Positions 37,607 through 64,000 of a DNA stretch of 64,000 bases are shown piece by piece. The stretch comes from Byssothecium circinans (lineage: Eukaryota > Ascomycota > Dothideomycetes > Pleosporales > Massarinaceae). The notes under the pieces are model-generated. The model was given only the letters and a program-made list of their open reading frames with translations. It was not told the origin of the DNA and did no database searches. Where the stretch lies: contig ML976999.1 in NCBI GenBank assembly GCA_010015675.1, positions 620,059 to 684,058 of the forward strand, read 5' to 3'. The number at the start of each line of letters is the position of its first letter. Position 1 is the stretch's first letter. The translations under genes were made by a program, and so were the position numbers.

Positions 37607-37618
37607 TTTGCGGAGCGA
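37607..37618 (+). repeat. Helitron 5' terminal inverted repeat
   Basis: TTTGCGGAGCGA, an exact inverted match to 48,453-48,464. One of few G+C-rich strings in this area, so a chance match is unlikely. Confidence 0.75.
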
Positions 37619-40600
37619 GGAATGAGCGTAGCAAATCTACAATCCAAATCGCGCCTGAGGGCTTCCAAAAAATCGCATTTTAACGTACTTCTACCTATTG
37701 AATTTCATTGCTGATTTTTCTATATATGCTAAAAACTGTACCCTTGATAGTTCTACTAATAGCAGCCTGTATTTAATTCGTTGTAATAGGTATGCGTGGA
37801 TAAAACAGTGTTTTTTGAATGATGTTCTTTAGAATCATAACTAATACGCGTGTCGCGTGTCCTGTATTAGGCAGTGAAATAGGGGCTTAGGGTCTAAAAG
37901 CTGCTTGCGCTACTTTATCTACTAGCTACTACATGCGGTAACATGACTAAACCCTATATTATAAAGAAAAATTCACTATACTATAGGCCTAATATCTTGT
38001 AATACTACCTAATACTACTTCCCTCCATCTACGTACTCTTACACGTTATTATAGATGTTCTACACTGTAATTGCTGCAACGCACCTCTTACACCTAGCGT
38101 TAATCAATTTCGCAATAATAAATAGAAGAAGAACTGTCAGGCTTGCCTTATAGTTACTTAGAGTTATAAACGGCAAGTAAATACGTTAGAGTATAAAGCT
38201 ACACCCCCTATAAAGTATTACGTAATGCTAACGTTAGACTCTAGTCCTTTATCTAGTATTCTCTATACTCTAACGCTAGTCTAACCTTAATCTATACTAA
38301 CGTCTATGCCGTATACGCTAACTACACTAGGGACTCTACTTAAGCAGTAGCTTCTTCGTACGGCTAGTATTAGTCTTAGTATTAGGCCACCATCTTAGTC
38401 TTTAAATACGTCGCTATTACCTTACCTATCCTAACTTCCCCTATTAGCACCACTAAGCGCTACAACTCCTATTGAACCCCTATCATCATTATAAACGCTT
38501 TCTAGTCAACTATTACTATAGATAGCTACGATACATTCTACATCACAGCTGTAGTATTCATAATAGCAAAGGGAGGGTATTTTATAGAATACCCCTCTAT
38601 CTTTAGTACAATCATGTGATACTTACTTTAGTATTAGTCCTAGTATTAATCGTACAACCTACACAGCAGCTAAGTCTAAAGAACATGTAGTTGACGAGTT
38701 AGATGATAGTATAGTAGCAGCTAAGTCTTAAGAACATGTAGTTAATAAGTTTAATGATAGTATAGATAGAGAGATGCTTATAAAAGTAGAAGAGAATATA
38801 TATGACTTCCCTCTAGAAGAGCCCCTATTACGAATTTAGGATGATAGTTCCTATCTTTCTAATCCTACATTATCTAATCAAGATAAAACATATATCTCTA
38901 CATTTTATAACGCACTTAAGAAAGAAGAGATAGAGACGTGTACAATTTGCAACCATTATTAGTTTCGCCTAAACGTTTGCTATGGGGAATATGCTACCTA
39001 TTTAACTAATCACGTTAAACATAGTACTAAAGAGGATTAGGTACCTATATTTAGTACTATAAATAATATAGATCTAGGTGTAATGCCTAACCTCCCTTCT
39101 CTTACTAATATTAAGGAGATGCTTATTACCCAGGTTTACTATTTTATGCAGATATGTTAGCATCGTGGGCAGCAGTATAAGTATAAAGGGCATATATATC
39201 ATTTTGCCGTTAATGTAGCTAGGGTATTTTCAAGGCTTCCTATCCTTCTATCTAAGCTTGATATTATTATCCTTAAACTACTATATTCAGATAAGGATGA
39301 CCACGCTTTAGTTGAATGCTAATTCAAGAAGAGTTGGAAAGTAAGGCGCACTATAGTGTTGCGTTAGCTGCAATAGTTAAAGGCACATTACTCTAGATAC
39401 AGCAATATTATTATTAATAATAAGGCTATTCAAGAACTCCCTATTAATAGGTATGTAGATGATTAATTTACTATGCTTTAGCATAGAGATATAGATATTA
39501 GGCTAGGGGATTATCCTAATACATAAGAGCTAGTATTGCTATCCTATACGCTAGACTATTCACCCCTACTATCTATACCTACTGCGACCGCCTATATACT
39601 AGATGAGTTACCACCTAATACTAGGCCTAATACTAGCGCGGATTCCTACTACAATGGTAGCTTAATTTTTGATGAGGACGATAATAATGATAATAGAGCT
39701 AACATAACCATGGTTCCTAATATTATTCCTAATGTTAGTAAATTTAAGACTTTATGTTATTAAATCTAATTAAGACCTTCCTACCTTACTATGGGCTTAG
39801 TATAAAGGACACCTATTTCTAAATATAGTAATTAGGAAAAGATCCTTAGTCTTGCATTTCCTATCTTATATCTAAATGGAATTAGTAACTATATATAACT
39901 AAGGATGTGGGAGGTTGCATATGCGGACTATGTTTAGCACATGATAAGCTATAAGGATGGACGTTTTACTTATTACTTACGTTTCCATTTTACTACCTTT
40001 AATATGCTTCTCCACAGGTAAACTACTATAAAGGCGGGTTTCTTTATAAGGAAGATACTAGACGGCGCTTCTATAACGGCTAAAGATATTTAAGCTTAGT
40101 TTAACAGCGCTGATAGTGGGCAGAGTTTAATTAACGCTATAATATAGTTCTCTACCTTTATTTAAGGTTCTTATGCGTATTAGAAAGTAGAGGGTATAAA
40201 CCTAAAGGCTATGGTACGTGTAGTCTACCTAATACCTAGCTAATACCCTTATTATTAACATCTAACTTTTATTAATAGGTTTGTTAGCTATGATGTCCTT
40301 ATCTATTTGTTACATACTCTGCTACAGATTACTATTAGGCTAATCTTATAAGATTTATAGGAGAGGAGGCCTTTACTAAGTAGCAGACTGTAACTAATGC
40401 ACGTCAAGTAAGGCTGGCACAGGATTTCGTACGTGATAACTTACACATTGTTGCTTACTAGTTCTACCGTTAATTTGAACTATTTAAGAAGCATGTTATG
40501 ACGCCTAAGTTTAACCTTATTAACTTCTAGCATCATTACGAGTGGTAGGGCTATGGTAGTACTCATAACCATAGCCTATACTACTATGGGGATGCACCTC

Positions 40601-41571
40601 ATCCTAATTAGTATTTAGCTTAGAATACTACCAAGCTTAAGAAGCAACGATTAGCAAAGTATTGGGGCTATTACATTAGCGCTGTTCATCCTAACCCACA
40701 TAAGGCTACTCTAGAGCATTCATATGGCTCCCCTTTATCTCTTGCATTTAATTAGATAGTTTTTGACTTTCACGAACTTGCTACTATCTTAACTAAGTGC
40801 TACATGCATGTATGTCATCTTAGTTACTGCCAAAGGAAAAATAAGAAGATGGGTGAGGTAGTCTGTCGCTTTAAGGCTCCCTAGCCACGTATAGCTAATC
40901 CCTACTTTGCTAAATTAGTTAGGAAGTCTTTTTACCGTCTCCACGCTTAACGGAATCATCTACTTCTAAACGCGTACTGTTGAACTCTGGTATTAGGCTG
41001 GCGGGCTAATACTAATATATAGCCCTGCACTAGTACTGCAGGTGTTGTTTAATATGTTAGTCTATATGTTAGTAAGGTAGAGCAGCAGACGACGTCGTTT
41101 AAGGATATGGCTACTGAGATACTGCCTCATATCTAGTCCAAGAATGCTATGTTCAAGTTTGTGGCAAAGTTAATAAACAAATTAGTGGGCCAGAGGGACT
41201 ATAGCGCTCAGGAAGTTTGCTACATCCTCTTTAATCTGCCCCTCACGGATTGTAGTCGTACTATTCTTAACGTTAACCTTTGTTGTGAGGAGGATCAGCC
41301 TAAGACATACGTCTTTCAAGCTAATCGTTAAGTTGATAATGAAGTGTTTAAGGAAGATACACCTTAGTTTACTGAGGGCCGTTCTGTGCTAGTAAAATAC
41401 AAGGAGAGGCCTCCGTCACTTGAAGCCGTATCCTATTTAGACTACCTTCTTCATTACGACCATGCAAAGAATCGAGTTAGGCCCCAGGCTAGGCCTAGGA
41501 TTTTGAAGTTTTACCCTCTATACTCTCCTGAGTTAGATAGGGAAGACTTCTCTCGCGTCAAACTTATGCTA

Positions 41572-42958
41572 CAGTACTAGGACATAAGTATCCGGACCAT
41601 CCGAAAAAGTGGAAACCACCAACCACAGAAAATACCCACCACGATTAGTTTTGTATAGGTAATCGCTTACAATAGTGATCAGCGAGGGTGTAAATAGTAG
41701 TCTATTAATTCAGTACTTTGTTTGCCAGCCTCTAGCTTGGATAACTGCCCGAGTCCTCCGCGGTACGCTCTTAATAAGCTTGTCAATACTAGCCTGTGGT
41801 ATTGCTCTCCACGCTTCTTGAGCGCATTGAGTAAAGTGATCTCTATCGACTCCTCTAAAGCCCTGGCCTTCAAGGTTAGGATACAATTTGACTAGCTTCT
41901 GCTTTAGCAGCCACCAGAGATGCTCGATAGGGTTGATATCTGGTGAGTACGGCGGCCAATCGATGACCTCAATTTCATGCGCGTTAAGCCAATTGGTGGT
42001 TTCTCGCGACTTATGGATAGGAGCGTTATCCTGCATGAATTGGTAGGGCTCATACTCCTCCTCCTCTTGATCAAAGTCCTCCTCCTCCAGCTCATTCCAG
42101 GGTAGTAGGCCATCCTCTAGTGTATTGGTGTATGAGGTAGAGGTGTACCCACGCAAGCCTCTGACGCGTTCCATAGCAATCAATTCACTCCTTCCACCTA
42201 GCCAAATAGCTGCCCAAAACATCTGGCGTAGTACTGATTGCCTAGCCCTACCTTCAACCATCTCCTTATACCACTTCTGCTGTAGTGTACGAAATACCCA
42301 TACGCGTTTCTTACCGCGTCCTTTCTCTACTAAGCACTCGTCAGAGAACTTAACGCGTACCTAGCTTTTGTAGCGGTTGAGACGCGCCCACCTAAGGCGG
42401 TTGCGGGCGTCTAATGGAGAAAGCGCTGGCCGTAGTTTCGCGGCCCACTTCTTTATACCGTACTTGTTTAGTAGGCGAGAGAGCGTTCTTGAGGAAACGT
42501 TAGGCATGCCAATAGCCTCTACTTTCAGCTTTGCGTACTCTATACGCGGGTATTGGCGAACAATCCGCAGTAGTCGACGCTCATCTCAAGCATCCATTTT
42601 CTTTGGAGCTCCTTTACGCGGTAATGAGGTAATTTTCCCGTGCTCATTCCATCTCTTTATAGTGTCGTAGTAGGTTGATTTGCTGACGCGAAACGTATCC
42701 TGGATTACCTTAGGTTTGACGCGATTCTCGACCGCGCTGAGTATAGCCGTGCGTAGGTGTGGGCTTAGCTCTTTCTTGGGTGGGCGCGCACGCAATATAT
42801 CACCTGAAAAGGACCGGCGGAGGGTAGTATGAGGTGGCGCCATTAATTTGACGTAAAAAACGCGTAAACTGAGTAAGGATTGGTGGTGGTAGGTGGTGTT
42901 GAAGTTTAGGTACAATTTGCTCAATTTAGATGGTCCGGATACTTTTGTCTTGGCACTG
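41572..42958 (-). mobile_element. Tc1/mariner-type element, nearly intact
   Basis: A 1,387-bp element with TIRs starting CAGT and sharing AAGTATCCGGACCATC, flanked by TA (41,570-41,571; 42,959-42,960), inserted in the Helitron helicase gene. It is far richer in G+C than its host and holds one transposase frame with only two stops, so it arrived after most RIP of the Helitron. Confidence 0.92.
41710..42843 (-). pseudogene. Tc1-type transposase with two nonsense codons
   Basis: From ATG 42,843 (MAPPHTTLRRSFSGDILRAR) to the stop at 41,710, one frame of 377 codons with no frameshift. The N-terminal helix-turn-helix includes AILSAVENRVKPKVIQ and FRVSKSTYYDTIKRWNEHG. The DDE triad is visible: FSDE, MQDNAPIHKS and SPDINPIEHLWW, with 34 residues between the second Asp and the Glu (DD34E, the Tc1 type). 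An acidic insertion (NELEEEDFDQEEEEYEPY) precedes the second Asp. TGA at 42,588-42,586 (codon 86, likely from CGA) and TAG at 42,363-42,361 (codon 161, likely from TGG) are the only lesions, both of the C-to-T/G-to-A kind made by RIP. Confidence 0.9.
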
Positions 42959-44966
42959 TACATCATCCATTTCGACAGGTATTAGATGTAAAGACCTTTG
43001 CCGGCCAGGAGTACCAGTTATTCTTGCAAGCCTATCGGAACTGCCTATTGGTATGCAATCACCCTTTACCCGATAGCTTTGGAGAGGTGTTACCTAAAAA
43101 CGAGGAAGAAGATCCAGATTAGGAAGACGTGGATTTAGCGGATGAGTCATCGTGGAATGAGCTTGCTGGTCGTCTCCCTGGTGCTGATGGTGTTATCGTT
43201 GATAAGGATAACCTAGGCAGTTAGCCAGTTGATCTAGAGAAGGATTAGAACGTACCTGAGCATAAGGATAGTTACGGCCTTAATGCACGTCAATATTAGA
43301 AGGAGATGAAGACAGCTTATCCAGTCAATTACGCTACTGGACCTAATACCTCGCCTAATACCCTCCAGTCTAAACAGTGGCTACTGTTTGATCTCATCGT
43401 TAATCATTATTAAGCCTACCTAGATAGGAATAGGCTAGAGCAGCTTCTTCTTAACCTTAACGGCTAGGGTAGTACTAGAAAGACGTACGCTATTAAGGTT
43501 ATAACCTCTACTATGGATAGTATTGCGAGGGCTTTAGGGAAGAAATCACCTATTATACAGTGCGCACCAACTGGAGTAGCCACTTTTCTTATTTTAGGAA
43601 AGACTATCTACTCTACCTTCCGCATACTAATTTAACCTCCTGGTGGTGTGCTTCCACCTCTTGCTCTAGTAGCGTTAGCTTAGACCTAAGCGCTATTTAC
43701 TAATGTTTATTACCTTATTATAGATGAGAAGTCTATAGTAGGGCTAACAACACTAGCGTGGTTAAATATAAGGTGCCGTGAGATCTTTCTAGCACAGGCT
43801 AGTTATCCTTTTAGCAGTTTAAACATTATCCTAGCTAGTGATTTTTACTAGTTACCCCTTATCATAAGAAGGCCTATGTTTGATACTATAAAGAGCTACA
43901 GCTCTTTAGATACAGCTAGTGTGGCGCTATATAAACTATTTACTAGAACTATTATTCTAGATGTAGTTATGCGCTAGCAGGGTTCTGAATAGGCTTCCTT
44001 CTATAATGCTCTTACACGTATCCGTGAGGAGAAGCCTAATGTCTATAACTAGCTTCTCCTTATGAAACGCTGCAGCGTTGAGCTTAGTGAGGTAGAACGG
44101 AACTCCTTTAATTCTGCCTTGCGTATATGCGCAAAGAGGATAGAGGTAGCTGCTATTAATCATAACTACCTCTAGGACTCTAGCTGGCCTATCCTTATTT
44201 TATAGGCTACACATGATAGTTAAGATTAAGAGAAGGTGTCTACTAAGGATGCGGGGAATCTCCATAACTAGCTCCCTGTATTTATTAGTGCCTAGGTTAT
44301 GCTACTTAACAATATCTAGACAGAGCGTGGTTTAGTTAATAGGGCTATAGGGGTTATCAATAATATCCTTTAGCAGCCTAATACCTAGGATTATCGCAAG
44401 GCTACACTAAAGGTAGTATTAGTCGCTATAGATAAGTATAATAGGCTGTGTCTTTACAGCCTTCTAGATAATACAAAGGTTATTCTAGTGTTTCCTCTTA
44501 TTTAGGAATTTACTGTTAATTAGAGTATGCATATGCGTATTTAATTCCCTATTACACTTGCCTAGGCTATTACAGTTCATAAATCCTAGGGTTTAAGTGT
44601 AGATAAGGCTGTGATTATGGTTAGTAAGGAGTAAGATCACTGCCCTAGCTTAATGTACGTTACGCTTTTAAGGGTTAAGACTGTTAATAGTTTAATATTT
44701 AAGGATGTGTTTTCCTATCAGTAGTTAAAGCAAAAGAGAAGCAAGGTGTCAAAGATGCGAGAGTGGGATATAAGGCGTAGGGCGCGTCATTACGTTACAG
44801 TGCAGCAGACTATTTTCTAGGTCTAATACCTAGACCAATACTACTGTCATTAAGAGGTTTTATAAGGGTGGTTTCCTATAATATAAGCATTCCTATGAAA
44901 GTTTCCCTAATCTATCTAGATAGATAGAGCGCCTAATACTACAGCCTAATACTCTGTAACTATATC

Positions 44967-46638
44967 CTAATCCCTAGAGTATATAGTCTCTGTATCTATA
45001 CTATCTACTAAATATAGACTTGGATTAACGTCACCCTTATTACCTAGCCTCTTAAGCTCTATGAATTTCATAATGTTAGGCATCTTCACACCATGATTAT
45101 AGCCTTAATAGGGAACCTCTAGCTTAATACCTTCTATTACATCTTCTTCTATTTGCACACCTTCCATTAGTTCGCCTTAGGAAGTATTCTCTGTAGGAAG
45201 TTCTGTAATGATATGGTCAAGTAGATCTACAGCATATCCTACATTCTCGCCCTATACCTTAGGGAAATGTGCGCTATAGTATTTAATAGTGCGTAGATTA
45301 TACGCACTAGGAAGCTTGCATGCTTTACTATTATAAAAGAGTTGGATAGTAGAGTCTGTATAATCCCTATTACGCTGTGCTTAGTAGATTAGAGAGAGTA
45401 GCACGCGTTATTATTAGGGGAATAGCATAGAGAATAGCGGAACAGGTATCTTTGACTTAGTGTTAACGCTAATCAGGTATCTATAAGGCACTTCTAACTT
45501 CTATAGTGCTAATCTTGCAGCGATGATCTATTATAGTTAGCTTATGCCTAATACCCTAACTAATACTACACTTACTTAACCCTATCGCATAGGTAGCTTT
45601 AATTTAGTCTTCTTAAGCACCTTTCAAGTAGCACTAGCCTATTAATGGTTAGTTCTAGACTAATACTAGGTCTAATACCTTACTTACTTATCCTAAACGC
45701 ACTAGCTTCTTTCCAGCTACTAGAAGAGCGACTTAGTTATTAAGTGTTAGGTTAAGCTACTAGATATAGCGCTGCTTAGTATTAGCTATAGTATTAGGTT
45801 AGTTACGTTACACTTATAATAAACATACCTTACGGCATGTATAGAATGAATCCCTGTAGCCTTTAATAATGGAGAATCCTTAACTTTTCCACTATAATGT
45901 TAAGCTCTCTATTCTAGTATCTCTTCACCTGTAGCTAGTAGCTAAGCTCTATTCATTCTTCCCTCTCTTTATTGCTTAGGTTAGGCACTGTTATATCAAA
46001 TTTTTCTTTTTTCTCCTTGATGTCCGTCGTCTTTTTATCCGCTTTGCCTGCGTTAGATTTGCTCTTTTTGCTTAACTTGCTACTCTCTACACTTTCATTA
46101 ATAGTAGACGAGGCAGCGTCAACAATATACTAAGGTGGCATGAACTTATCTTCTAGTGCCTAGACCTTTTCTTAAGGCTTAAAGACTAATCTTATAGTTT
46201 TGTAGTTAGATTCTAGCTTTCTAGTGCGTGCTATAGCTAGCTATATCTAGAGCAGATTCTAACTCTCCCTATGTATTATTAGTTATACCTAATACCAGAC
46301 TAATACTCTTCTCATACCTAGCCTTAAGCGCTACATTGCAACTCTGAATTTGAAGCATGTCCTCAAGTTGCTTACGCTCATTTTCATCTGTAGCGCTATC
46401 AAGCAGGTGCTGAATACGTGGCAAGAACTTCTTTATCTAGAAAGTAGAGCACGCCTTTACTAAGTTAGTATATAATTATTCAGGTATAGGGGGGTTGTTA
46501 TACCTTATTATTAGCGTTTTTTCCCTTTTAAATCATGAAGTCTTCGCCCTGCTTGCTTGCGCGAAGTTTGTTATTTTTAATGGTGCTTGCATTTAATGAG
46601 TATACATTAGTAGCCTTCACCTTCTTCCGGTCTGCCAT
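44967..46638 (-). pseudogene. Helitron cargo gene, unknown, Lys-rich N-terminal part (RIP-damaged)
   Basis: Minus strand from ATG 46,638: MADRKKVKATNVYSLNAST..., then an intron (GTATAA..TTTCTAG, ATACTAAC branch) into IKKFLPRIQHLLDSATDENE and KQLEDMLQIQSCNVALKARY. Next comes a Lys/Ser-rich segment (KLSKKSKSNAGKADKKTTD). Further exon-like pieces follow, such as LLATGEEILE, KDSPLLKATGIHSIHAV and LLVAGKKLVRL. They end with a long piece 45,530-44,967 (NRDYTDSTIQLFYNSKACKL, GENVGYAVDLLDHIITELPT, NHGVKMPNIMKFIELKRLGN). Nearly all breaks are TAG/TAA. It may be one gene with several introns or two genes. I do not recognise it. Its basic, coiled N-terminal part suggests a nuclear DNA-binding protein; that is inference. 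Confidence 0.5.
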
Positions 46639-47454
46639 TGCAGCGAGAGAGCTTAGCAGGATGTATTAGGTAGGTATTAGGCGTTATTTAGTAGTAGGGC
46701 AAAGTTGCGTGTAGTGCATAGACGTTATATAAGGAGTATATAGGAAGTAGTATTAAGTAGCAAATTTTTAGCAATAAGTTTGTTTATAGTTACACGAAAT
46801 TAAAAGTAGGGCTAGGCAGCAATTACAGGAAATTATCACTAGCCTGTTATGTGCGTTAAATGCGCCTAACACTTTACAACATAATTCTAGCATGAGCGTG
46901 TATAGCTTAGTTAGCTGCATAAGTACATACTAGAATCATAGTATTAGGTTAGGTATTAGTCTCTCTTTAGAAGCCATTTCCTATCTTTATACGTAGTTTT
47001 CTTACTAACGTAATGTTTTCTCTCTTATTTTACTTCTCTTTACGCCCTTACCTTTACTACTTACCTTTACCGCTCACCCTTACTAGCTACCTTTATGTTG
47101 CTTTCTTACTTCTCGCGCTTACCTACCACCCCGCACTTTAACAACTCTCAATCTTTGCGATTTTGCTGTCTTTGTGGTCGCAAAGCTTTGCAGCTACAGT
47201 ATAGCTATAACTAAAGTATTAGGCTTAGTATTAGCCTTTCTGTGTATATACTCCCCTATAATTTCCCCTTTTATTGCCTACTAATTTTAACTTCCTTGCG
47301 TACTATCACTATTCCTATTTTTTACTTTTACTGTTCTTATTTCTTACTTTTACTTTCACTGTTAATATTATTAGTTTTCCATCTGTTTTCTAACTAAAAA
47401 GTAGTTAGTTTACGTCTACCTTATTTTCTTTCATACACTTTATAATATACCATC

Positions 47455-48201
47455 ATGGCCGCCAAGAAGAATTGAGGCAAGCTGCCTGCAAAGGCTCCTC
47501 GTGGCAGAGCTGGCAAGGGTCATGGCGCCTAAGGTAGGCTAGGTATTAGTCTTAGTATTAGCTACATGTTAACTATATCTAGCTTTAGGTCCTCGCAAGA
47601 AAGGCTAGAAGAAGCTTCCTACCAATACTAGCACGAACCTATATAAGGGTTGCAAGAAGAAGGGAGGGTCACCGCTACTAACATAGAAGCTAATAAGCTA
47701 CGCTATGTAGAAGGAGCGTGCTCCCATCTATAAAGGCCCTAGCAAGGGAGGCCCTTATATTAGGCGTCGCAAGCCTAGTAGTAAGTTTTTAACCTATATT
47801 ACTATAGCTAGACTAATACTAGTATTAGCCTTTGCTCTAGTAGAGATCCATTTCTACTAGAAGACTCTAGGTGACTTAATTCTAGTAGCGCTATTTAGGA
47901 GATTAGTTCGCAAGGTGCTATAGAATAATTAAGAAGGAAATAGTAACCCTATGTCCCATTTCTAGTCTAAGGCTTTGGACGCCTTACAGGCTACTACTAA
48001 GGCCTTCCTAGTAGACATCTTACAAGGTATTAGTCTAATTTATATAGTATTAGCCTCTGCTAACAATAGTGCCTAGCTATAAACCTTAGTGCTATCTATA
48101 GGAAGCGCGTCACTATTCAAGCTAAGGACGTTAAGCATGTCATTAGTATTAGCAAGATTCTTACTCTATACAGCAAGATTCTGCAGGACTTGCCCGCCTA
48201 A
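47455..48201 (+). pseudogene. Divergent histone H3 / CENP-A-like gene on the Helitron (RIP-damaged)
   Basis: Four exons, 47455-47533, 47589-47780, 47841-48026 and 48077-48201, joined by introns of 55, 60 and 50 bp (GTAGGC, GTAAGT, GTATTA donors; TAG acceptors; GTTAAC and GCTAAC branch sites), make one 194-codon frame. The first 90 codons are a Lys/Gly/Pro-rich tail (KLPAKAPRGRAGKG, GPSKGGPYIRRRKPS). Then the H3 fold follows: EIHFY-stop-KT, LFRRLVRKVL, MSHF-stop-SKALDALQATTKAFLVDIL, INLSAIYRKRVTIQAKDVK. The TAGs at 47,858 and 47,963 lie exactly where H3 has Gln (YQK, FQS), as CAG-to-TAG predicts. There are nine internal stops and no frameshift. The tail is about twice that of H3 (as in CENP-A), loop 1 is about five residues longer, and the last helix diverges after KDVK. 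Now non-functional. Confidence 0.7.
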
Positions 48202-48452
48202 TGCTGTATCTCACTATGCTACCTATCTCCTACATGTCAAGCTTAAGGGTATTAGGCGGTATGAGACATGACTACTAGCGTTAAATGGATATTATCTGCA
48301 AAGTATAGCTTTCTATACTACTTAATTTAAGGAGTTATAATAGACTAGAACACGGAAGGTTTCTAGTATACTAGCTAGGATAGATAGCTTAACTATCTGA
48401 ATGAAAAAGCTTTATTGCGTAACTACTCTTCTTCTCTACCCTAAGTGATAAA

Positions 48453-48499
48453 TCGCTCCGCAAATTCTAATTCCCTTTTACGAAAATTGGAAGGATCTT
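48453..48499 (+). repeat. Helitron 3' end: internal inverted repeat and terminal hairpin
   Basis: TCGCTCCGCAAA (48,453-48,464) is followed by an imperfect hairpin: TTCC-C-TTTT, loop ACG, AAAA-TT-GGAA (48,471-48,492). The last seven bases are GGATCTT. The arrangement matches a Helitron2-type 3' end; it does not show the canonical CTRR terminus. Confidence 0.65.
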
Positions 48500-50669
48500 A
48501 TTTATCCTCTACTCTTACCCTTTTATAGTTCTAAACTGTTCCTAATAGTTTAGAACTAACCTAGTTTACTATAGAACTAAACTATATAGTACTACCCTTC
48601 TAAAGATACTTATATTTATATATTTTAGGCTTAGTTACTACTATAAGTTGCTGTTTAAGCTCTTTAATACGCGCCTTTATAAGCGCAGTATTATGCAGCA
48701 CTAATTTAGTACCTTTAATAAGCTATAAAAGCCTATCCTACGCTATTTATAGTAATTAAGTAATAAAATTATATATAAACTTTAACTATAAGCTAAATTC
48801 GCGTATATTACTTAGAGTCCTTAATAACTATAGCGTCTCTAGTAGTAAGGGTCCTAGTAGAGTACGTATATATATATTAAGGTAATTAAGTACTACCTAC
48901 GCGTTTAGAGGGACTAGCCTTATTACCTTAAAAGCCTTTTAATAGTTCTAAACTATAAATACACTTAAAAACACGTCTTTAAAGGCTAGTAAGAACGCTT
49001 CCTTATTAATATAAAAAACGCGCTATTACGCTAAGCCCTAAATAATATTAGAGTACTTGCGCTTAAGCAGCGAGAATAACACTATATTAAGTAGCTAGAG
49101 GATATGTAACGAGTATAGTAGTATATAGAGCGTAAGGATCTTATTATTATAATAATAATCCTTAAAATCTTAATTAAGGTAGCTTTTATAGCTATCTAAA
49201 ATTAGCAACTAATAGACGCTAACAGTTCTTACCTTTATATGCGTGTTAAAGTGCTTTAACTATATAAGACTAAGCTTATTAGTTGTCTATCTATTCTCTA
49301 AGACTAAGAGCTTCTAATTATATAGTGTATTAGCTTCCTAGTATTATAAAAAGATATAGACGCATCCTTTATATATAATAAATAGTAAGGTAAATATACT
49401 ATTTAAATATATACTCTAGATATCTATTACCTACTCCTTATCGCTTAGCTAAACTATTGTAGGCCTTTCTCGCTTCTCTAAGCTAGTAACTACTTTTATA
49501 GAGCTAATAATACCTCTCTAAAAGCTAGTCTTATTAAAGTTATATATATAATTATTGTGTACGCTATACTTTGCTTTAGTATCCTATATAAGCTTAAACT
49601 ACGCGCTAACTACCTTAGGATCTTCCTATAGTGCCTTTTAATAGTCCTTTAAATAGTTCTAAACTATTTATAACTATTCTAAATAGTCTATAAACTATGC
49701 TACCTAGTTAATACCTACTTTCTTACTACCTTACTTACGTAGTAGTTTATTTACTATATCTAACACTTCGCCTAATATAGGCGAAAATCCTTACAAATTA
49801 AGGTTAAAGATATATTAGATAAGCGTATCCTCTTTAGTTAAGGATAGTTTTAAACAGTTTAGTACTGTTATTAGGCAAAAGGTAATTCTGTTAAGGTAGT
49901 TAGAGAGGCTCTAATAGCGGACGTTAAATACTACTATAGCGCATTAGAGGCTTATAAATTAGCCTAAATAGTAAGCTTAAAGGGCAAGCTTAATTCTACC
50001 CTCTTATTAAATAAGTATCGCGTTTAGTAGTGGAGGTATTTCGTAATAAGTATAGTATTAGTATTGCTAAGGAAAAGTAGCTATCTTAGTAGTTTAGCTA
50101 TCTTAGTAGTAGAATGCGTTACTATTAAAGTAGCTACCTTATTAAAGTAGCTACTTTTCCTTAGTAATACTAATACTATACTTATTATAAAATACCTTAA
50201 CTAATAAATATAATACTTATTTAATAAGAAGGTAGGATTAAGCTTACCCTTTAAGCTTACTATTTAGGCTAATTTATAGGCCTTTAACGCACTACTAAGG
50301 CTTTTAATATTTATTATTAGAGACTCTTTATATACCTTAATAGAATTACCTTTTAACTAATAATAGTACTAAACTATTTAAAACTATCCTTAACTAAAGA
50401 GGATATACTTATATAATATATCCTTAACCATAATTTGCAAGGATTTACGCCTATATTAGGTAAAGTGTTAGATATAGCAAATAAACTATTAGGTAAGTAA
50501 AGTAGAAAAAAGGTTAGTAATAACTAGGTAGAATAGTTTATAAACTATTTAGAACTATTATAAATAGCCTAAAACTATTTAAAAGACTATTAAAGAGTTC
50601 TATAAGAAGATCCTAAGGTAATTTGCACGTAGTTTAAGCTTATATAGAAGACTAAAGTAAAGTATAGTA

Positions 50670-51746
50670 ACGTATTCTACAATCGAGCTGGCCAAACCAT
50701 CGAGCCGGCCACTTTTGCTTGGCAAGGAAAATCAAACTGTATTATCTTAATAACAATTTAAATATAAAAGCTATTAAGCTGAAAATTTAAATATAGATAT
50801 ATATAATATAGAATAAAAGGATTATTGAAAAATATTCTAGGATTTCTAATAGCTTAGTAAGCTATATAGGTATAGAGAATACTAGGCTACTTTTAGTATA
50901 TAGCGTATAAATACCTACTAAACTAGCTAAATAAGCTATAATAACTTTAGAGCTAGTTTATATATATATAATACACCTATTAGCACTAAAATTATAGCGT
51001 GCAGCCTTGACCTATTAGAGAATTAGCGTAGGGAAGGTAGAAATTCCTAAAATTAGAAAACTATAATTAAATATTTTATCTAGCTAGATATCCTTAGTTA
51101 TTTTCTTTTAATAAACTTTATATATATATATATATAATAGTAATATAAATAGTTAGCTATAAAAGATTAGCTTATATAAGCTTTATAATAAGGCAGTGTC
51201 TAAATTTTCTAAAAACCTATACTTCCTAAGCTAGATCTTTTAGTTTTAGAGGTATTTACTTAATTTAAACTTTATATATAGCTTTATTTAGTATATACTA
51301 TCTTCCTCCTAAGAAGAAAGTAGAGATATCTAATATATATAACTTTATTTAAAAGATTTTCTATTTTTTCTTACCCTCTACCTTATACCTACTATTATAG
51401 TATTAAATCTAGGCTGCATGCTATAATAACTTAATAGCAACTAACTAATATACTAACAAGTAAGTTCTAAAAGTTATATAGTATATTACTAACATTTAGC
51501 TATTAATCTATAGTATAAGGTAGGCTTTAGCTGCTAATATTTTATAGGTTAATAACTATTTTATTACGTAAGCTAAGGCAATAAATATTTAATAGCTATT
51601 AGGTTATATATATATCTATCTAGGTTTAAAATTTTAAAAGAAAATATTAAGGTTTAGCTTTGTTATTAAGATAATATGGTTTGATTTTCCTTGCCAAGCA
51701 AAAGTGGCCGGCTCGATGGTTTGGCAGGCTCAATGGTGGAATACGT
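50670..51746. mobile_element. Nonautonomous long-TIR element 1 (Tc1/mariner-type target)
   Basis: ACGTATTC...GAATACGT, flanked by TA on both sides. The terminal inverted repeats are long (about 80 bp, including GGCCACTTTTGCTTGGCAAG and its inverse). The internal DNA is A+T-rich with no coding trace. It interrupts element B. Internal sequence is shared with elements 2 and 3. Confidence 0.85.
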
Positions 51747-52177
51747 TATATATAATAATAATATATATAACTTTAATAAAACTAGCTTTTAGATAGGTAT
51801 TATTAGCTCTATAAAAGTAGTTACTAGCTTAGAGAAGTGAGAAAGGCCTACAATAGTTTAGCTAGGCGATAAGGAGTAGGTAATAGATATCTAGAGTATA
51901 TATTTAAATAGTATATTTACCCTACTATTTATTATATATAAAGGACGCGTCTATATCTCTTTATAGTATTAGGAAGCTAATATACTATATAATTAAAAGC
52001 TCTTAGTCTTAAAGAATAGATAGATAAATAATAAGCTTAGTCTTGTATAGTTAAAGCACTTTAACGCGCATATAAAGGTAGGAACTATTAGCGTCTATTA
52101 GTTACTAATTTTAGATAGCTATAAAAGCTACCTAAATTAGGAGTTTAAGGATTATTATATTAATAATAAGATCCTTA

Positions 52178-53231
52178 ACGTATTCTACTACTGAGCGCGC
52201 CACACTACCAAGCGCGCTAGAATTTCTTGGCAATGAAAATCAAATAGTATTATCTTAATAACAAAGCTAAACCTTAATATTTTCTTTTAAAACTTTAAAC
52301 CTAGATAGATATATATATAATCTAGTAGGTATTAAATTTATATAGCTATAGCTTACGTAATATAGTAGTTATTAGTAAGAGAAGAAATCTTAGGTAAAAC
52401 CTACCTTTACCTATAGATTAATAGCTAAACGTTACTAATAGGCTATATAACTTTTAAGACATACTTATTAGTATATTAGTTAGTAGCTATTAAGTTATTA
52501 TAGCATGCAGCCTAGATTTAACGCTATTATAGTAGGTGTAAGGTAGGGGGTAAGAAAAACTAAAAAATCTTCTAAATAAAGTTCTATATATTAGAAACCT
52601 ATAGTTTTTTCTATAAGAGGGAGATAGTATATACTAAATAAAGCTATATATAAGTTTAAAGTAAGTAATTACCTCTAAAACTAAAAGATCTAGCTTAGGA
52701 AGTATAGGTTTTTAAAAAAATATAAACACTGCTATATAATAAGGCTTATATAAGCTATTTTCTTATAGCTAACTATTTATATTACTTCTATATATATATA
52801 TAAAGTTTATTAAAAGAAAAAAGTAAGAATATCTAGCTAGATAAAATATTTATTTATAGTTTTCTAATTATAGGAATCTCTACCCTCTCTACGCTAATTC
52901 TCTAATAGGTCTAGGCTGCACGCTATAATTTTAGTGCTAATAAGTGTATTATATATATATAAACTAGCTCAAAAGTTATTATAACTTATTTAGCTAGTTT
53001 AGTAGGTATTTATACGCTATATACTAAAAGTAGCCTAGTGTTCTCTATACCTATATAGCTTACTAAGCTATTAGAAATCCTAGAATAGTTTTTTATAATC
53101 CTTTTTATCTATATTATATATATCTGTATTTAAAATTTCAGCTTAATAGCTTAAGTATTTAAATTATTATTAAAGGTTAAATCTTTGATTTTCCGCTAAG
53201 CAAATTTTAGCGCGCTCGGTAGTAGAATACG
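52178..53231. mobile_element. Nonautonomous long-TIR element 2
   Basis: Same family as element 1, in opposite internal orientation. Ends are ACGTATTCTACTACTGAGCG...CGGTAGTAGAATACGT with TA on both sides. It lies at the point where element B stops; the right half of B is not found after it. Confidence 0.8.
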
Positions 53232-53233
53232 TT

Positions 53234-53671
53234 AACGTAAAGCACCATCGAAGCGGCCACTTTTTGCTTGGCGGAAAATCAAACATTCAACCTTTAATAA
53301 CAATTTAAATACTAGAGCTATAAAGCTGAAATTTTAAATATAGATATATATAATATAGATAAAAAGGATTATAAAAAAATATTTTAGGATTTATAATAGC
53401 TTAGTTAGCTATATAAGTATAGAGAATACTAGGTTCGCTTAGGCTTTATACCCTACAACACCTAATAAACTAGCTAAATAAATTATAATAACTTTAGAGC
53501 TAGTTTATATCTATATAATACACCTATTAGTACTAAAATTATAGCGTACAGCCAAGACCTATTAGAGAATTAGCGTAGGGAGGGTAAAGATTCCTAAAAT
53601 TAAAAAAATATAAATAAATATATTATCTAGCTAGATATTCTTACTTTTTTTCTTTTAATAAACTTTATATA
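53234..53671. mobile_element. Nonautonomous long-TIR element 3 (left half only)
   Basis: Begins ACGTAAAGCACC directly after the TA that ends element 2. Its internal sequence matches elements 1 and 2 until it is cut at 53,671 by the insertion of copy C; the other half is not seen after C. Confidence 0.7.
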
Positions 53672-53673
53672 TA

Positions 53674-55524
53674 ACGTATTCTACTACTGAACCGCCTAAA
53701 CTACTAAATTACCTAAAATTCCTTAGCAACACTATTACTATCTTTAACGCGAAAATACCTTAACTATACTAATTAGAATGAGACTAACATAAAGGCAGGC
53801 TACAGCTTACCCTTGCTATATATAATAGAGGCTAATTTAACAGCTACTAACGTGCTGCTAAGGCCTTTAACGTCAAACATTACGTCCTATCTAAACGAGC
53901 TAGAGGAGTACCTTTTTAACTAGAAATAGTTCTAAATAGTTTAAAACTATCCTTGACTAAAGAAGAGACAATCGTCTAATATATCCTTAACCTTAATTCG
54001 CGAGGATTCGCGCCTACGTTAGGCGAAGTATTAGATATAGCGAATAAACTACTGCGCAAGCAGGGTAGTAACGAAGTAGGCATTAACTAGTTAGCATAGT
54101 TTATAAACTATTTAGAACTATTAAAGACAGCCTAGAACTATTTAAAGGACTATTAAAGAATACTATAGGAAGATCCTAAGGTAATTAGTATATAGTTTAA
54201 GCTTATAGAGGATACTAAAATTAAGTACAGCATATATAATAATAATATCTATAACTTTAATAAGACTAGCTTTTAGATAGGTATTATTAGTTCTATAAAA
54301 GTAGTCACTAGCTTATAGAGGCAAGCAAGGCCTACTATTATTTGGCTAGGTAATAAAGAATAGGTAACAGATATCTAAAGTATACGTTTAAATAGTGAAT
54401 ATACCCTACTATTTATTATCTATAAAGAACGCGTCTATATCTCTTTATAGTATTAGGAAGCTAATATACTACGCAATTAGAAGCTCTCTATCTTAGAGAA
54501 TAGATAGACAACTAATAAGCTTAGCCTCGCGTAGTTAAAGCATTTTAATACGCATACAAAGGATACTATAGTAGGCGTCTATTAGTTACTAATTTTAGAT
54601 AGCTATAAAAGCTACCTAAATTAAGATTTTAAGGATTATTATTAAGACAATAAGATCTTTACGCTTTATATACTAGTGTACTCGTTACACATCCTCTAGC
54701 TACTTAATCTAGTGTTATTCTCGCCGCTTAAGCGCAGGTACTCTAAGATTATTTAGGACTTAGCACGCTAACGCGTCTTTTACGTTAATAAGGAAGCGTT
54801 CTTACTAGCCTTTAGAGACGTGTTTAAAAGCGTGTTTATAGTTTAGAACTATTAAAAGGCCTTTAAGGCGTTAGGGCTAGTCCCTCTAAACGCGCAGGTA
54901 GTACTTAATTACCTTAATATGCGTATATATACCCTACTAGGACCCCTACTACTAGAGACGCTATAGTAATTAAGAACACTAAGTAATATACGCGAATTTA
55001 GCTTATAGTTAAAGTTTATACGTAATTCTATTACTCAATTACTACGAATAGCGTAGGGTGGGCTTTTGTAGCTTATTAAAGGTGCTAAGTTAGTGCTGCA
55101 TAGTACTACGCTTATAAAGTTACACATTAAAGAGTTTGAAAAGCAACTTAAAGTAATAACTAAGCGTAAAATACGCAAGCGCAAGTATATTTAGAAGGGT
55201 AGTACTATAGAGCATAGTCCTATAGTAGACTAGAATAGTTTTAAACTATTAAGAACTATTTAGAACTATAAGAGGGTAAGAGTAGAGGGTAAATATAAAG
55301 TATAATAACTAGGTATTTACTACTACAGTAACTACGGTAAGGCTAGGCATAACGCGAGAACGTGTTAAGTAGATAAAGAGGGTTCTTCTAAATTAGATGC
55401 TAGTACTTAGTATATTTTTTTAGATAGCGATACGGACGATAATAATAATAAAGTTAAGTAAGTTAGTATTGCTAAGGAATTTTAGGTAGTTTAGTAGTTT
55501 AGGCGGTTCAGTAGTAGAATACAT
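53674..55524 (+). mobile_element. Fot1/pogo-like element C, full length (1,851 bp), RIP-damaged
   Basis: Complete element with long TIRs (about 56 bp, starting ACGTATTCTACTACTGAACC; right end mirrors it, with GAATACAT) and TA duplications (53,672-53,673; 55,525-55,526). The transposase can be followed in plus orientation through many TAG/TAA codons. This copy sets the unbroken length used to test the nesting of element A. Confidence 0.88.
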
Positions 55525-55715
55525 TATATATTATTTACTTATTTATCTCTTACGCCTAAAAGCTAAATATATACTAAAAAAATACTAAGTCTATTAAGTC
55601 TACTAAGTAAGTCTAGGTAAAAGACTTAACTTACTTAATAAAAACTAGACTACTAACTTAGCTTACTTAGTAACGTAAAGTACTATTAAAGTAGCTACCT
55701 TATTAAAGTAACTAC

Positions 55716-55929
55716 TATTAGCTAGCCCTACCTTAGGAGTGTCCTTTAGTGTGGGTCCTTTTATAGGTTATAGTTAATTCTCCTTTTATTACGTGTGTGC
55801 TTGCACTTCTCTAGCCTAGTGCCTAGTTAGTGCTTCGCTTTATAGTATATAATTCCCTTGCTAGTAAATAATAATAGATTATTAATTCTATTATATACAT
55901 AAATATTCCTTTCTTAGCTATAATCTATA
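55716..55929 (+). repeat. 5' LTR of the copia element
   Basis: 214 bp, matching 61,368-61,581 with mainly C-to-T and G-to-A differences (for example TGTGTGC against TGCATGC). Confidence 0.85.
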
Positions 55930-57600
55930 GGTTATAAGCTCCTTATCTGCTATCTATAACTCTAATTTAATCCTACGCGTTTAAACTAGAGTTACTTAAT
56001 TAACGCGTAGTTCTTCCTTCTATTTTTACTCTAATTTTATCTTACGTTAAGCGTAAGGTATACGGCCTAGAGATACTTCCCTTATCTTACGTTAAATGCA
56101 AGTATATAACCTAGAGATACCCTACCTATTATAGCACCCCTAGATACGCACTAATAGTAACTGCCTAATAGCATGTTATACTTGCTAAGTATAAACTTAG
56201 CTAACATTACTAAATAGAATAAGTAGATACGTAATCTTGCTACTACTAAGTTTACTTTTTTAATCCTTAAAGGTTCTATACTACTAATATTTACTTTAGT
56301 AGATTTACGTACCTTTAAACTTAAGACTCTTACTATTTAACTAAATAAAATGTTAGCATAAATTAAAGCTACTATTACTAAGTAGAAGAGTATAATAAGC
56401 TAGTTTAACCTATTAATAAGGATGTCTACATTTAAAAGGAAACTAAAAATAAGGCTATTACTTAGTAGAATAAAAATAATATGCTTCTTTAGAAGACTAT
56501 TTTAGGTTTTATATATTAACTTTACTATGTAAGCTTACTCTTTTATAGCTCCTCTATAAAGATATATAACTTCTTTTTATCTTTATATAAAGGCAATACT
56601 ATTAATATTAAGCGTAAGGCTTAAGTATAGTTTGTTAACCTTTAAGCTAAAAGTTCTTCTAATATATAAGACTATATTAGACATTTTAAATAAGCTGTAG
56701 TATCCTTAGCTAATACTAGCATCTTTATTAAAACTCTACTTTTTAAGCCTATCTTAGAAATATATATTACTCCTTAAGAGTTAGTCTAAGGAATTTAATC
56801 TACTATAGACTTAGGTGTAAATAAAACTTTAGTTATCTACTTTCTATATAGCCTCTTATAGGCACTACCTAGTTAGGTAAAAGATTAATAGATAGACTAC
56901 TATTATAGACATTTATAGAAACTTAATAAACTTATAACGTTAACTATTATTCTTAATTATGTATCCTATAAGAAAGACAATCCTATTAAGCTTTTTAATA
57001 TTAGAGTAAAGAAAGAAGAAGAAGAATATATTAATAGGCGCTACTAGAATAACCTAAATACTAATAAAAACTATAATAATAATAGTAGTAGCCTTAGCTA
57101 GCAACCTAAACTTTTTAATAATACTATAGGAAACACTAATACTAATAACTAAAACTAACCTAAAGGTAGTAATAGTAGTGCATATAGTCCCTAGAAACTA
57201 AATCTTAATTATAAATATAAAGGCTATTTACCTAATACGTGTTAGTTACTTTACCCTAAACTTGTACTAGACTAGATTAAAGATAGAAAACCTAATCTAA
57301 ATCCCTATAGACCTAGTAATTAAGCTAACGCTAATCTTATAATAGTAAACCCTAATAACCTATAGCTAATGATTATTACCTTAAATATTTTTATAGTATA
57401 TGCTGTTATAGCTGCTGTTTCTACAAATATCCTCGAGAAAGCTATCTATGATAGCTAATACTATAATTAATACTGCTATAATATAGGTACTAATTATTTA
57501 GTAATTAATAATTAATTAAAGTTTATTAATATTAGACCTTCTACTTTTACAAAGGTCTCTAGTATTACTAGGGATTATTCTATTTAAGGATAAAGCATAG

Positions 57601-57758
57601 TATTGGACAGTAGAGACCTAAGAGCATGCAATACGAAAAGTAATCCATTGTGTGTCTAGTGGTGTAGCTTAGGAGAGGTAACTATATAGGCAGGAGCTAA
57701 CGCTAGGCTGGAATGGTACTAAACTGTCTAGAATAGTTAAGTACTGTTTAGTCTAACA
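57601..57758. mobile_element. Solo LTR, copy 3, inside the copia element
   Basis: 158 bp, TATTGGAC...GTCTAACA (TGTTGGAC...GTCCAACA after C-to-T/G-to-A change). Target duplication CATAG (57,596-57,600) and CATAA (57,759-57,763). Same family as 15,874 and 37,152. Confidence 0.88.
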
Positions 57759-60700
57759 CATAACTACTATTTTAGTTGCTAAGAAGAATAGTAATTATTT
57801 ACTCCTTTATTTACGTAACGTAATTCTTTACCCTAATCTAGCAATAAACGTTATTTCTTAAGCTCTATTTAAGAAAGCTAGTGCATACTATTACTTAGGT
57901 AAAGATGCTTTATTTAATATTAATAGTAAATCTAAACTTACTTATCTCTTAAAGATTAATAACATTCTAAACTTTCTAGTTATTAAAGATAAGTTATAAG
58001 CTACTATAGTACTAACTATTGCTTAACTATACACTACTTAATCCTCTTATAGTATTCTAGTAACTTTACGCTCTTTAGCTAAATAGTATTACATTCTTAG
58101 ATATGCTAGTATAGATTAGATATGTTACTTAGCTAATATAGTTAAAGGTATTTATCTATTAAACACTAAACCCTTTACTTATAAACTATATAGACTCTTT
58201 AAATCTATAGCTATTATCTTACGTTAACTATAGGATATCCCTCTTAGAATCCTTAGTATAATATACGTTAACCTAATTAGTCCTATTAAACTATTAGGAA
58301 CTAAGAATATCTTCTATATTATTATTATTACTAATAGTAAATCTTAATACTATTAGATCTTCTTTAGATCTAACTAACTAGCACTTACTACCTAGCTAAT
58401 AGAATTCTTCTATGCTATAAAGAATTAGTATAACCTTTTTATTAGTACTGTTTAATATAATAGCGCCTGTAAGTTTATTAGCTATAAGGTTAAATAATTC
58501 TATACTATAGAAGGTATAACTATTTAAGAGTTACCTCTATATTATTACTTTTAAAATAGTATTGCTAAGGCTACTAGCTTAATTACTAAGATAAAGGTTT
58601 AAATTTTACTTGCTATAGTTAATCTTCTACTCTCTCTTTAGCCTTATACTGCTAAGCGCTTAATTAATCTACTTAATAACATAGTATCTTCTTTAACCCT
58701 AGGTAAGACTCTAAATAAGGTATAGTTTACTAAAATTAGTGTACTTAATCCTTTACTTAATTTTACTTTCTTTTAAGCTTTTAGCTATACTAGATACGTT
58801 AATATTCCCCCTAAATATAAGGATTATGTTACTAGATAGAAATTTAATCCCTAAGCCTATAAGGGCTACTTTATTAGTATAGCTAGTAAATTAATATACT
58901 AGATATACTATCTAGATAATAATACTATATATTAATGAGCTTCTGTTAAGTTTAACCTATATAACGTACACTTTAAGATTAAGGCTAAGGTATCTTTTAA
59001 TAATAATACCCCTACTCTTTTACTTTTCTTAAACCTCTATCCTTTAGTCTATAAAGAGACTAATAAGTTTAAAAAGGATATTACTCTATATTAAGCAATT
59101 CTTAGCTCTATAGGTTTTCTACTCTTAGTAACTAATTATTTATCTTCCTTTACTTTTATAGATAAGTAAGAAGTTTCTTAACCTACTAATACTTTTAATA
59201 AATTATTAGTAATAACCTAGGAATCTGCTAGAAATCTAGGGGATAATTTAGAGGATATAGTTACCCCTAATATCTTAACTAGTATACCTAACTTTAATAG
59301 GCTAGATATTAATACTAAAGGTAACTACTAAATAGATTCCCCTTCTCTTTTACCTACTTGTTAAGCTGCATTACTAATTATACTTATCTCTTCTTAATTA
59401 GAGGCTATTAAGCGTACTTAGACTAGATAGATATTATAGTACCCTAACTAAGATATAAATATTAACTACCCTCTACCTAATTAACTAGACACTTCTTAAG
59501 TTTATTAACGTAATATTCTTCTAAAGAGAGCTAAGCGTACTTAACTCTAACTTACTTTTACTTTAGTAACCTTTAGTTATTACTTTATTTCTTTACTAAT
59601 ATTACCTACTTTACGTACCCTTCTTTTAAGCTTACTACTTCCTTCTTAAAACTATTAAGAGTTTATAAGATATCCTAAGTATAAGCAATTTTAAGGTGCT
59701 ATAAATACTAAGCTTAAATCCCTTATAGATATAAAGACCTAGCGTAAGGCTCTACCTAAAGAGATTATAACTTATATTAAGAATATTATTCCTAGCTAAT
59801 AAGTATAAGATTATAAAGATAATAGTTCTAGCTACTTATTAAAGTTTAAGGCGCGTATTATTACTTATAGTAACTTATAGTAGAAGCTAGACTTCTACTA
59901 GAGTATATATACCTATATTATTTATATAACTACTTTCTAAGCTATCTTTACTCTTATAACTCTATATAATCTAGAGCATAAGTAATATAATATTATTACA
60001 GCTTACTTAAACGCATACCTATAACTAAATAAGGTATAACTTATAAAAGTTTTACTTAGTTACTTAGCTACTAGTATAATTATATAACTACTCTAAAGTA
60101 TCTACAGTCTCTATAAGTCTATACTTTAATAGTATAATAATTTTAAGGTATTACTAAAGAATCTTAGCTTTACACTAATTAAAGCAGAACTATATATCTT
60201 TATTAATAGTACTAGTGCTATTATTATAGCTTATATAGATAATCTTATTTTTACTGCCCCTTCCCCTACTACTCTACAAATACTTAAGAAGCTCCTATTT
60301 AGCTAATATAAAATGCAGAATCTTAGGCCTCTTTCCTTTTATCTAGGTATAAAGATTAAATGTAATTAACCTAATAGAAAGCTTACTATTTCTATAATAT
60401 CTTATTTTAAGCGTCTAGTATCTAACTATTATATAGAGAACTCTAACTTAGTTTAAACTCTATTACCTACTACTATATTAAGTAAAGAACTCTCACATAC
60501 TTTAAATAGAAATCTAGATATAATTAAATATTACTAGTTACTAGTTACCTATCTACTTTATCTAATCTTAATCTACTAACCTAATTTAGTATAGTATGTT
60601 AACTATATAGCTTGCTTCTCTAGCAATCTAACTAAACATTAAATAGATTTGCTAAAGTAGTTAGTTTAATATATTAATACTTAGCCTAACCTTAGTATTA

Positions 60701-61367
60701 CCTATAATAGTAATAACTTTAAAGGCCTTATTAGTTATTATAACTTAGCCTTTAGTAGCACACCTAACTATAAGGTACTAGCTAGTTATTGTTTCTATCT
60801 TACTAGTAGCTTTATCTTATATAAAGCGTACTAATAGTAAATTATAACTACTTCTTTTATAAAAGCTAAGTTTATAGCTATAATGTATGCTATAAAGGAA
60901 GCTCTCTAGCTTTAATACCTTCTTACTTAACTTAGTTACTTTAAGAAAGAACTACTACTTATTAAATTACGCGTTAACTATAAACTAGCTATCTAAATAA
61001 TCTATAGTAAAGGATAATATGCTTATACTAAGTATATTAATATCTACTATTACTACGCTAAGTAAGAAGCTTGTAAAGGGCGTATTAATATTATACACGT
61101 TCCTAGAGTAGCTATAGTAGCTAATAGATTAATAAAGCCCTTAGGTAATACCTAATTCTATAGTTTCTTAAAATTTATTTAACTTTAGACTATGTTAGTT
61201 ACTTAATTAGTATTTAATTAGTTTAAAACTATTCTTTAATTTTATTTCTTTAGGTGTTTATTTCTTACTCTTTTAACACCCCTTATTTATCTTACTAGCT
61301 TCTTTTGTCCTTTGCATACCGAATATCTTATTAGAGTTATAACTCTAGGAGAATTAAGAGGAGGACA

Positions 61368-61581
61368 TGTTAGCTAGCCCTACCTTAGGAGTATCCCTTA
61401 GTGCGGGTCCTTTTATAGGTTATAGTTAATTCTCCTTTTATTACATGCATGCTTGCACTTCCTTAGCTTAGTGCCTAGTTAGTGCTTCGCCTTATAGTAT
61501 ATAGTTCCCTTGCTAGTAAATAGTAATAGATTATTAATTCTATTACATATATAAATATTCCCTTCCTAGCTATAATCTATA
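61368..61581 (+). repeat. 3' LTR of the copia element
   Basis: 214 bp, starts with an intact TG dinucleotide; preceded by the polypurine tract at about 61,355-61,365. Confidence 0.85.
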
Positions 61582-62086
61582 GCTACTTTTCCTTAGTAAT
61601 ACTAACTTACTTAACTTTATTATTATTATTATCTATATTACTATCTAAAAATATAGACTAAGTACTAGCCTCTAACTTAGAAGAACCCTCTTTATTAGCT
61701 TAATAAGTTCTTATATTATACCTAGTCTTACTATAGTTACTATAGTACTAAATACCTAGTTATTATAATTATTATACCTTACTTTTACCCTCTACTCTTA
61801 CTCTTTTATAGTTCTAAACTATTCCTAATAGTTTAGAACTATTATAGTCTACTATAGGACTATACTCTATAGTACTACCCTTCTAAATATACTTATACTT
61901 ATGTATTTTTTACTTAGTTACTACTATAAGTTATTATTTAAGCTCTTTAATACACGCCTTTATAAGTATAGTATTATATAGCACTAACTTAGTACCTTTA
62001 ATAAGCTATAAAAGCTTCTCTTACGCTATTTATAGTAACTAAGTAATAGAATTATATATAAACTCTAACTATAAGCTAAATTTATA

Positions 62087-63913: not shown

Positions 63914-64000
63914 TCTATGCGCGTAACGCCTAGATTCGCGTAACGCCCACCTTTTTACTAGGAAAATTAAAGAAAATAAGTAACTTTAAAGCTATATAAC
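63914..64000. other. Start of a further unidentified element at the right edge
   Basis: After the truncated TIR of E, two AACGCC(C/T)A-type repeats 16 bp apart (GCGTAACGCCTAG, GCGTAACGCCCACC) precede a CTAGGAAAATTAAAG stretch. The arrangement resembles the TIRs of the other elements here, so another insertion probably begins at about 63,930. Not resolvable within the window. Confidence 0.35.

Follow-up and report, generated by a model that had tools for sequence, protein, structure and literature searches.

The 64,000-nucleotide stretch of DNA analysed here (the window; G000:C23:620059-684058 of the 48.4-Mb genome of Byssothecium circinans, Pleosporales, Massarinaceae) holds a Helitron that carries, near its 3′ end, a gene for a diverged histone of the H3 family, which we call H3L. 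The window element is a copy of an autonomous-type Helitron family that has been damaged by repeat-induced point mutation (RIP). As far as our searches reach, the Helitron carrier and the full-length, diverged and intron-containing H3 gene are new; H3 as transposon cargo is already known. The best overall explanation, to which we give an even chance, is that of a Helitron with a fixed divergent H3L that was formerly an active histone aiding the element.

A sequence-only reading of the window had proposed a four-exon H3-like frame at 47455-48201, and exactly these exons were recovered (79, 198, 198 and 125 nt, with GT donors and T-A-G acceptors), giving a 199-residue product in which the second intron ends at 47828 and leads into the H3 αN motif KPGTFALAEIRFYQK. 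The histone profile search that this reading had named as its check was run on the least mutated copy (C62:4019-4765, L034), which keeps all 199 residues with a single stop at codon 4, and it returned the Pfam Histone family (PF00125) at 88 bits and an E-value of 7e-25, the cut-off being 26.4 bits. Against the PDB the same copy gave a best E-value of 8e-23, and the best 60 of 176 distinct matches were all named H3 types. The histone match, together with the 27 copies described below, rules out a chance open frame. A protein deposited as 'histone-fold-containing protein [Byssothecium circinans]' (P0001) is identical to the C62 H3L over the aligned part (84% of the query); it has 171 residues, with an alternative first exon and start that bypass the codon-4 stop of C62, itself a non-RIP, A-to-T change relative to 22 of 24 other compared copies. 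The AlphaFold model of P0001 comprises αN, α1, a long loop 1, α2 and a long α3, and H3 nucleosome chains and CENP-A complexes tie as its best fold matches. In NCBIfam P0001 had one match, to an archaeal histone and far below the cut-off. The H3 fold, the long tail of basic character and the longer loop 1 that had been read from the letters are borne out. With a profile score above the curated cut-off, H3 as the nearest core histone and an H3-type fold with αN, H3L is an H3-family histone.

The gene had also been placed inside a Helitron, and this setting holds, with element ends at 37607 (ambiguous by one T) and 48499. These ends were set by BLAST of copy against copy, the left ends coming from 20 copies and three others, and they enclose 10.9 kb in the window, or ∼9.5 kb minus a nested insert. 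A DNA search found 27 H3L copies in the genome; the other 26 are 91-95% identical to the window copy, and in 25 of them the match spans 722 bp or more out of 747 (L033 with its first 25 bases unmatched), the last being cut by a contig end (L035). All 26 near-complete 3′ Helitron ends that were found adjoin an H3L copy, and the gene is therefore a fixed part of the Helitron family; the same adjacency to a shared element end rules out H3L as a separate insertion with ends of its own. In searches that score best candidates only, 20 of the 25 left ends at ≥93% identity have H3L within 11 kb (by inspection). The remaining five (C30, C23:107105, C69:45192, C14:1081903 and C99) also have no near-complete 3′ end within 11 kb and are therefore counted as incomplete, not as intact elements without H3L. 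Seven of the 27 H3L copies (C8, C14:912153, C18, C22:12630, C34, C69:66671 and C91) have no strong left end within 11 kb, and four short 3′-end matches (C107, C33, C7 and C17) come without an H3L match; the one on C33 also matches the 5′ terminus, and the one on C17 a stretch ∼250 bases inside it. On C33 a piece of ∼1 kb (G000:C33:228556-229567) matches the Helitron at its two ends, has no match to H3L and is likely a non-autonomous relative.

The flank to the left of the element is TNAT in 23 of 23 copies and the right flank begins with A in 26 of 26. When the two window flanks are joined they align to uninterrupted repeats at six places. Five of these fit to the base and at the sixth the gap is longer, in agreement with an insertion at TNAT^A that leaves no target duplication. 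The termini are TTTGCGG and GGATCTT, which sets the element apart from canonical Helitron1 with its 5′-TC and CTRR-3′ ends, and the 5′ terminal sequence pairs at 11 of 11 bases with a subterminal one (37607-37617 and 48454-48464), forming an asymmetric terminal inverted repeat. A single open piece of the Rep-helicase gene matches Helitron_like_N (PF14214) with 39.7 bits against a cut-off of 28.9, and the match reaches 64.7 bits when stops are read through; the gene also matches the PIF1 helicase family (PF05970) at 42.9 bits (cut-off 25.9). At least 20 Helitron_like_N matches occur genome-wide, by position all inside elements of this family. By its Rep-helicase profiles, end structure and insertion rule the element is a non-canonical fungal Helitron of the Helitron2/FoHeli-like kind.

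The damage to the H3L copies is RIP. When 24 copies were compared with L034 as the reference (leaving out the cut L035 and L028), 1631 of 1695 differences were C>T or G>A, 1196 of them in CpA/TpG and 327 in CpG context. Each compared copy contains 5-11 in-frame stops, against one in L034, and 192 of the 193 stop codons in the 25 compared copies fall on CAG, CAA, CGA or CGG codons of C62, the remaining one being C62's own. Two in-frame TAGs, in YQK and FQS, had previously been ascribed to RIP; both are present and the cause stands, and the count rises to nine stops in the window copy (six TAG, two TAA and one TGA, counted by eye). The further claim that no frameshift is needed holds for 24 of the 25 copies that span the whole gene, whose frame is free of indels; the exception, L028, is 2 bp short. 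For the window element the two RIP indices, the first being TpA/ApT, are 1.64 and 0.74; window positions 1-13000 give 0.68 and 1.11, and the C62 copy gives 1.16 and 1.13.

Over the fold H3L is identical to host H3 at 49 of 94 positions (52%) and to host CenH3 at 51 of 100 (51%), compared with 67 of 94 (71%) between the two host proteins. These values rule out recent capture of a host H3 or CenH3 gene, and the intron positions differ by eye. The identities are unevenly spread: of the 39 positions conserved in the family H3L shares 36 with host H3, and of the 57 others 13 (p 4e-12; the conserved columns were picked on proteins that similarity to H3L had brought up, a choice somewhat in its favour), and we therefore read the divergence as old and under constraint. 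As a control, the other 54 alignment rows keep at least 0.82 of the conserved columns (median 0.97), and H3L keeps 37 of 39.

Two trees, of 43 and 32 proteins, unite the fungal CenH3 in a single group from which H3L is absent (support 93/97 and 95/94). H3L has a long branch, and its neighbours are other diverged H3-like proteins of fungal or environmental origin; its joining with P0009 is flagged as possible long-branch attraction. At the boundary of loop 1 and α2 it reads RFQS where most fungal CenH3 among the matches listed read RWQS, and its C-terminus differs from the usual one of fungal CenH3. The Trp is not a strict marker, as P0039, P0077 and P0130 have Phe there despite a CenH3-type C-terminus. 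If H3L were CENP-A-like, as the sequence-only reading had suggested, it might mimic CenH3 and mark element copies or steer insertion to centromeric chromatin. Such a role would fit the length of loop 1, which exceeds that of host H3 by 5 residues and that of host CenH3 by 2, the CENP-A complexes among the tied best fold matches, and the many named fungal CenH3 in the best 120 of 621 histone-domain matches (where two plant proteins whose H3 domain is repeated outrank them). The approximately unbiased (AU) test of H3L inside CenH3, at p 0.152, does not reject the placement, the H3L branch being long. Against this stand the supported CenH3 group without H3L, the RFQS motif and the C-terminus, the equal fold match to H3 nucleosome chains and the spread of H3L copies over many contigs, and we consider a CENP-A-like role very unlikely. 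Being equally far from host H3 and CenH3 and outside the CenH3 clade at this AU value, H3L is, on sequence comparison, most aptly described as an H3 variant that belongs to neither class.

One tail motif, PIYK, occurs in H3L and P0030 only (2 of 242 proteins). Grouping of the two is not rejected (AU p 0.215) and the best tree does not group them, so that the link is a lead. P0030 itself is Venustampulla echinocandica BP5553_06230, a 209-residue diverged H3 with a basic tail containing R-x-PIYK as in H3L; it has 2 member sequences on 3 contigs and is possibly repeated.

The presence of H3L at 26 of 26 near-complete 3′ ends, together with the pattern of conservation, suggests an accessory gene that selection has retained for the benefit of the element, a reading that we consider somewhat favoured. 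The chief competitor is passenger capture, in which the Helitron took up the gene of an H3 variant that had diverged beforehand and multiplied it to no advantage; the constraint would then stem from the gene's earlier life in a host. Helitrons are known to capture genes, every copy compared is damaged, and diverged H3-like proteins exist in other fungi (P0030, P0127, P0132 and P0192), perhaps as host genes; the idea is also near to the reading by Dhillon et al. (2019) of hAT-borne H3 as transduplication of a housekeeping gene (PMC6710886). A passenger is harder to reconcile with a gene that accompanies all of those 3′ ends with its introns and upstream region, or with an identity of 52% to host H3, hence no recent local capture. 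Moreover, histone H3 is now found as cargo in two transposon classes (hAT, as published, and the Helitron described here) within one fungal class, and such recurrence of cargo from one functional class suggests that selection acted on the transposon, as opposed to capture by chance. On balance we regard passenger capture as rather unlikely, though clearly the strongest rival.

How an accessory histone might have helped is suggested by its tail. In H3 the motifs ARTK, TARK, ARKS and STGG are the contexts of Lys4, Lys9 and Lys27. None of the four is present in the H3L tail, so that silencing marks could not be written there. While the Helitron family was active, H3L would have been produced and paired with host H4 in nucleosomes; chromatin containing it, on or near the element, would have been unable to take host silencing marks at the tail, or would have been altered otherwise, and this would have favoured expression of the element or its rolling-circle replication until RIP mutated the copies. 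We propose this anti-silencing mechanism tentatively, with less confidence than the selective retention of the gene. A conserved fold whose tail, loop 1 and C-terminal extension are abnormal could also describe a poison histone, one that disturbs host nucleosomes or RIP and heterochromatin genome-wide and does not shield its own DNA. An element that resides in its host would pay a price for strongly harmful cargo; nothing else speaks specifically against the idea, and we hold it to be highly improbable.

Several points weigh against a formerly active histone kept for the element. The main gap is that the constraint on H3L may predate capture, if the gene came from an H3 variant that had diverged in a host. 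An intact 199-residue frame is missing from all 25 compared copies, including C62 with its non-RIP stop. Among the matches listed (best 120), only P0001 covers most of H3L at high identity, and among species with relatives the Helitron setting is known from B. circinans alone. Loss of the tail motifs could be mere divergence. If the explanation is nevertheless true, transposons with altered histones would be a route for mobile DNA to resist heterochromatin, and diverged H3-like proteins of other fungi would be candidates for the same role.

Table 1. Positions in the window of the Helitron, its genes and its terminal structures.
Feature	Position	Strand	Remark
Helitron element	37607..48499	+	same-base break: left ends of 23 copies, right ends of 26
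5′ terminal TTTGCGGAGCG	37607..37617	+	one half of asymmetric terminal inverted repeat
Rep-helicase gene, DUF6570 segment	39041..39373	+	PF20209, E 1e-22 in C62 copy
Rep-helicase gene, Helitron_like_N segment	40387..40881	+	PF14214
Tc1/mariner-type transposon, 1.4 kb	~41570-42958		nested in Rep-helicase gene; DDE_3 and HTH frames
Rep-helicase gene, PIF1 helicase segment	43300..43659	+	PF05970, E 6e-11 in C62 copy
Rep-helicase gene, C-terminal helicase segment	44524..44817	+	helicase matches below cut-off only
Companion gene, multi-exon, ~470 aa	44970..46638	-	divergent from H3L; exon joins by eye
Upstream region common to companion gene and H3L	46639..47454	.	inferred from gene starts
H3L exon 1	47455..47533	+	basic tail
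H3L exon 2	47583..47780	+	basic tail
H3L exon 3	47829..48026	+	αN, α1, lengthened loop 1, α2
H3L exon 4	48077..48201	+	loop 2, α3, C-terminal extension
3′ subterminal inverted repeat CGCTCCGCAAA	48454..48464	-	~35 bp inside 3′ end
Short 3′ hairpin	48473..48490	+	precedes terminus GGATCTT

The product of the companion gene had no match in Pfam or PDB. The Tc1/mariner-type insert has inverted ends starting CAGT and a TA on each side, and it is missing from 7 copies whose fetched stretch covers the site. Beyond the Helitron, positions 48500-64000 are AT-rich (25-35% GC) and consist of RIP-marked repeats (TpA/ApT 1.85 over 48.5-62 kb), among which the repeat that received the Helitron occurs at least 3 times. 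An Rfam scan of the window gave no match, and searches of a plasmid collection and of viral contigs yielded nothing useful.

The element is also rich in a short motif, GTATTAG, which with its complement occurs 41 times in the 9.5-kb C62 copy (1.9 expected) and, in the window, 44 times in the element versus 14 in the other 53 kb. Same-strand pairs 11-12 bp apart, with one mismatch allowed, number 16 in the C62 copy versus 0.09 in shuffles. Across the genome there are 353 exact pairs with a gap of 3-5 bases, versus one for the reversed control. Among the pair sites listed nearly all lie in this Helitron family, apart from two simple-repeat arrays and a lone site, and within 37607-48499 the pairs fall in coding, intron and intergenic parts (e.g. 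46663-46680, 46289-46306 and 40229-40246). The simplest guess is a putative binding site for an element protein. One could extend this to a Helitron with chromatin of its own, in which H3L nucleosomes would be seeded on element DNA by a DNA-binding protein, perhaps the companion gene product, reading GTATTAG-N4-5-GTATTAG, and would mark the element as self and keep silencing away; this we consider improbable.

Among known systems, the closest Helitrons are FoHeli1/2 of Fusarium oxysporum (Helitron2 type), which share the Rep-helicase, an asymmetric terminal inverted repeat with its 3′ half tens of bp inside, insertion at TNAT^A (so given in the text; the figure legend has TNAT^T) and, in one group, a length of 9-11 kb. 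They differ in their terminal sequences, and the word 'histone' occurs 0 times in the available text (PMC5148889). Fungal CenH3/Cse4 resemble H3L in the H3 fold, lengthened loop 1 and long variable tail; H3L differs in lying outside their clade, in Phe for the usual Trp, in its C-terminus and in being transposon-borne. The sequence-only reading knew of no Helitron with an H3-like gene, and our searches of open-licence PubMed Central turned up none; its sense of novelty has to be narrowed, as H3-like genes in hAT transposons of Dothideomycetes have been published since 2013. As described by Manning et al. (2013), hAT transposons of Pyrenophora tritici-repentis carry an H3-like gene, also named H3L, in 26 copies and with expressed sequence tags (ESTs), and their verdict was that it is neither H3 nor CenH3 (PMC3538342). 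As in B. circinans, a DNA transposon of a Pleosporales fungus carries an H3-like gene, there in each of its two described forms, in tens of copies, with tail insertions and a further open reading frame of unknown function; the P. tritici-repentis element, likened here by its description, differs in being a hAT with terminal inverted repeats, little RIP and ESTs (PMC3538342). Histone H3 transduplication by hAT was reported by Dhillon et al. (2019) in six Mycosphaerellaceae, including Pseudocercospora, Cercospora and Sphaerulina (PMC6710886), where RIP-inactivated H3-like copies were likewise spread by a DNA transposon and lie in AT-rich blocks. A hAT-borne H3L would be recognised by a hAT transposase, terminal inverted repeats and an 8-bp duplication, and the carrier here is instead a Helitron without target duplication. 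The Mycosphaerellaceae elements are hATs of ∼9.5 kb with 8-bp target duplications and H3 copies that are mostly truncated and intronless (PMC6710886), whereas in B. circinans a Helitron carries a full-length H3L with three introns.
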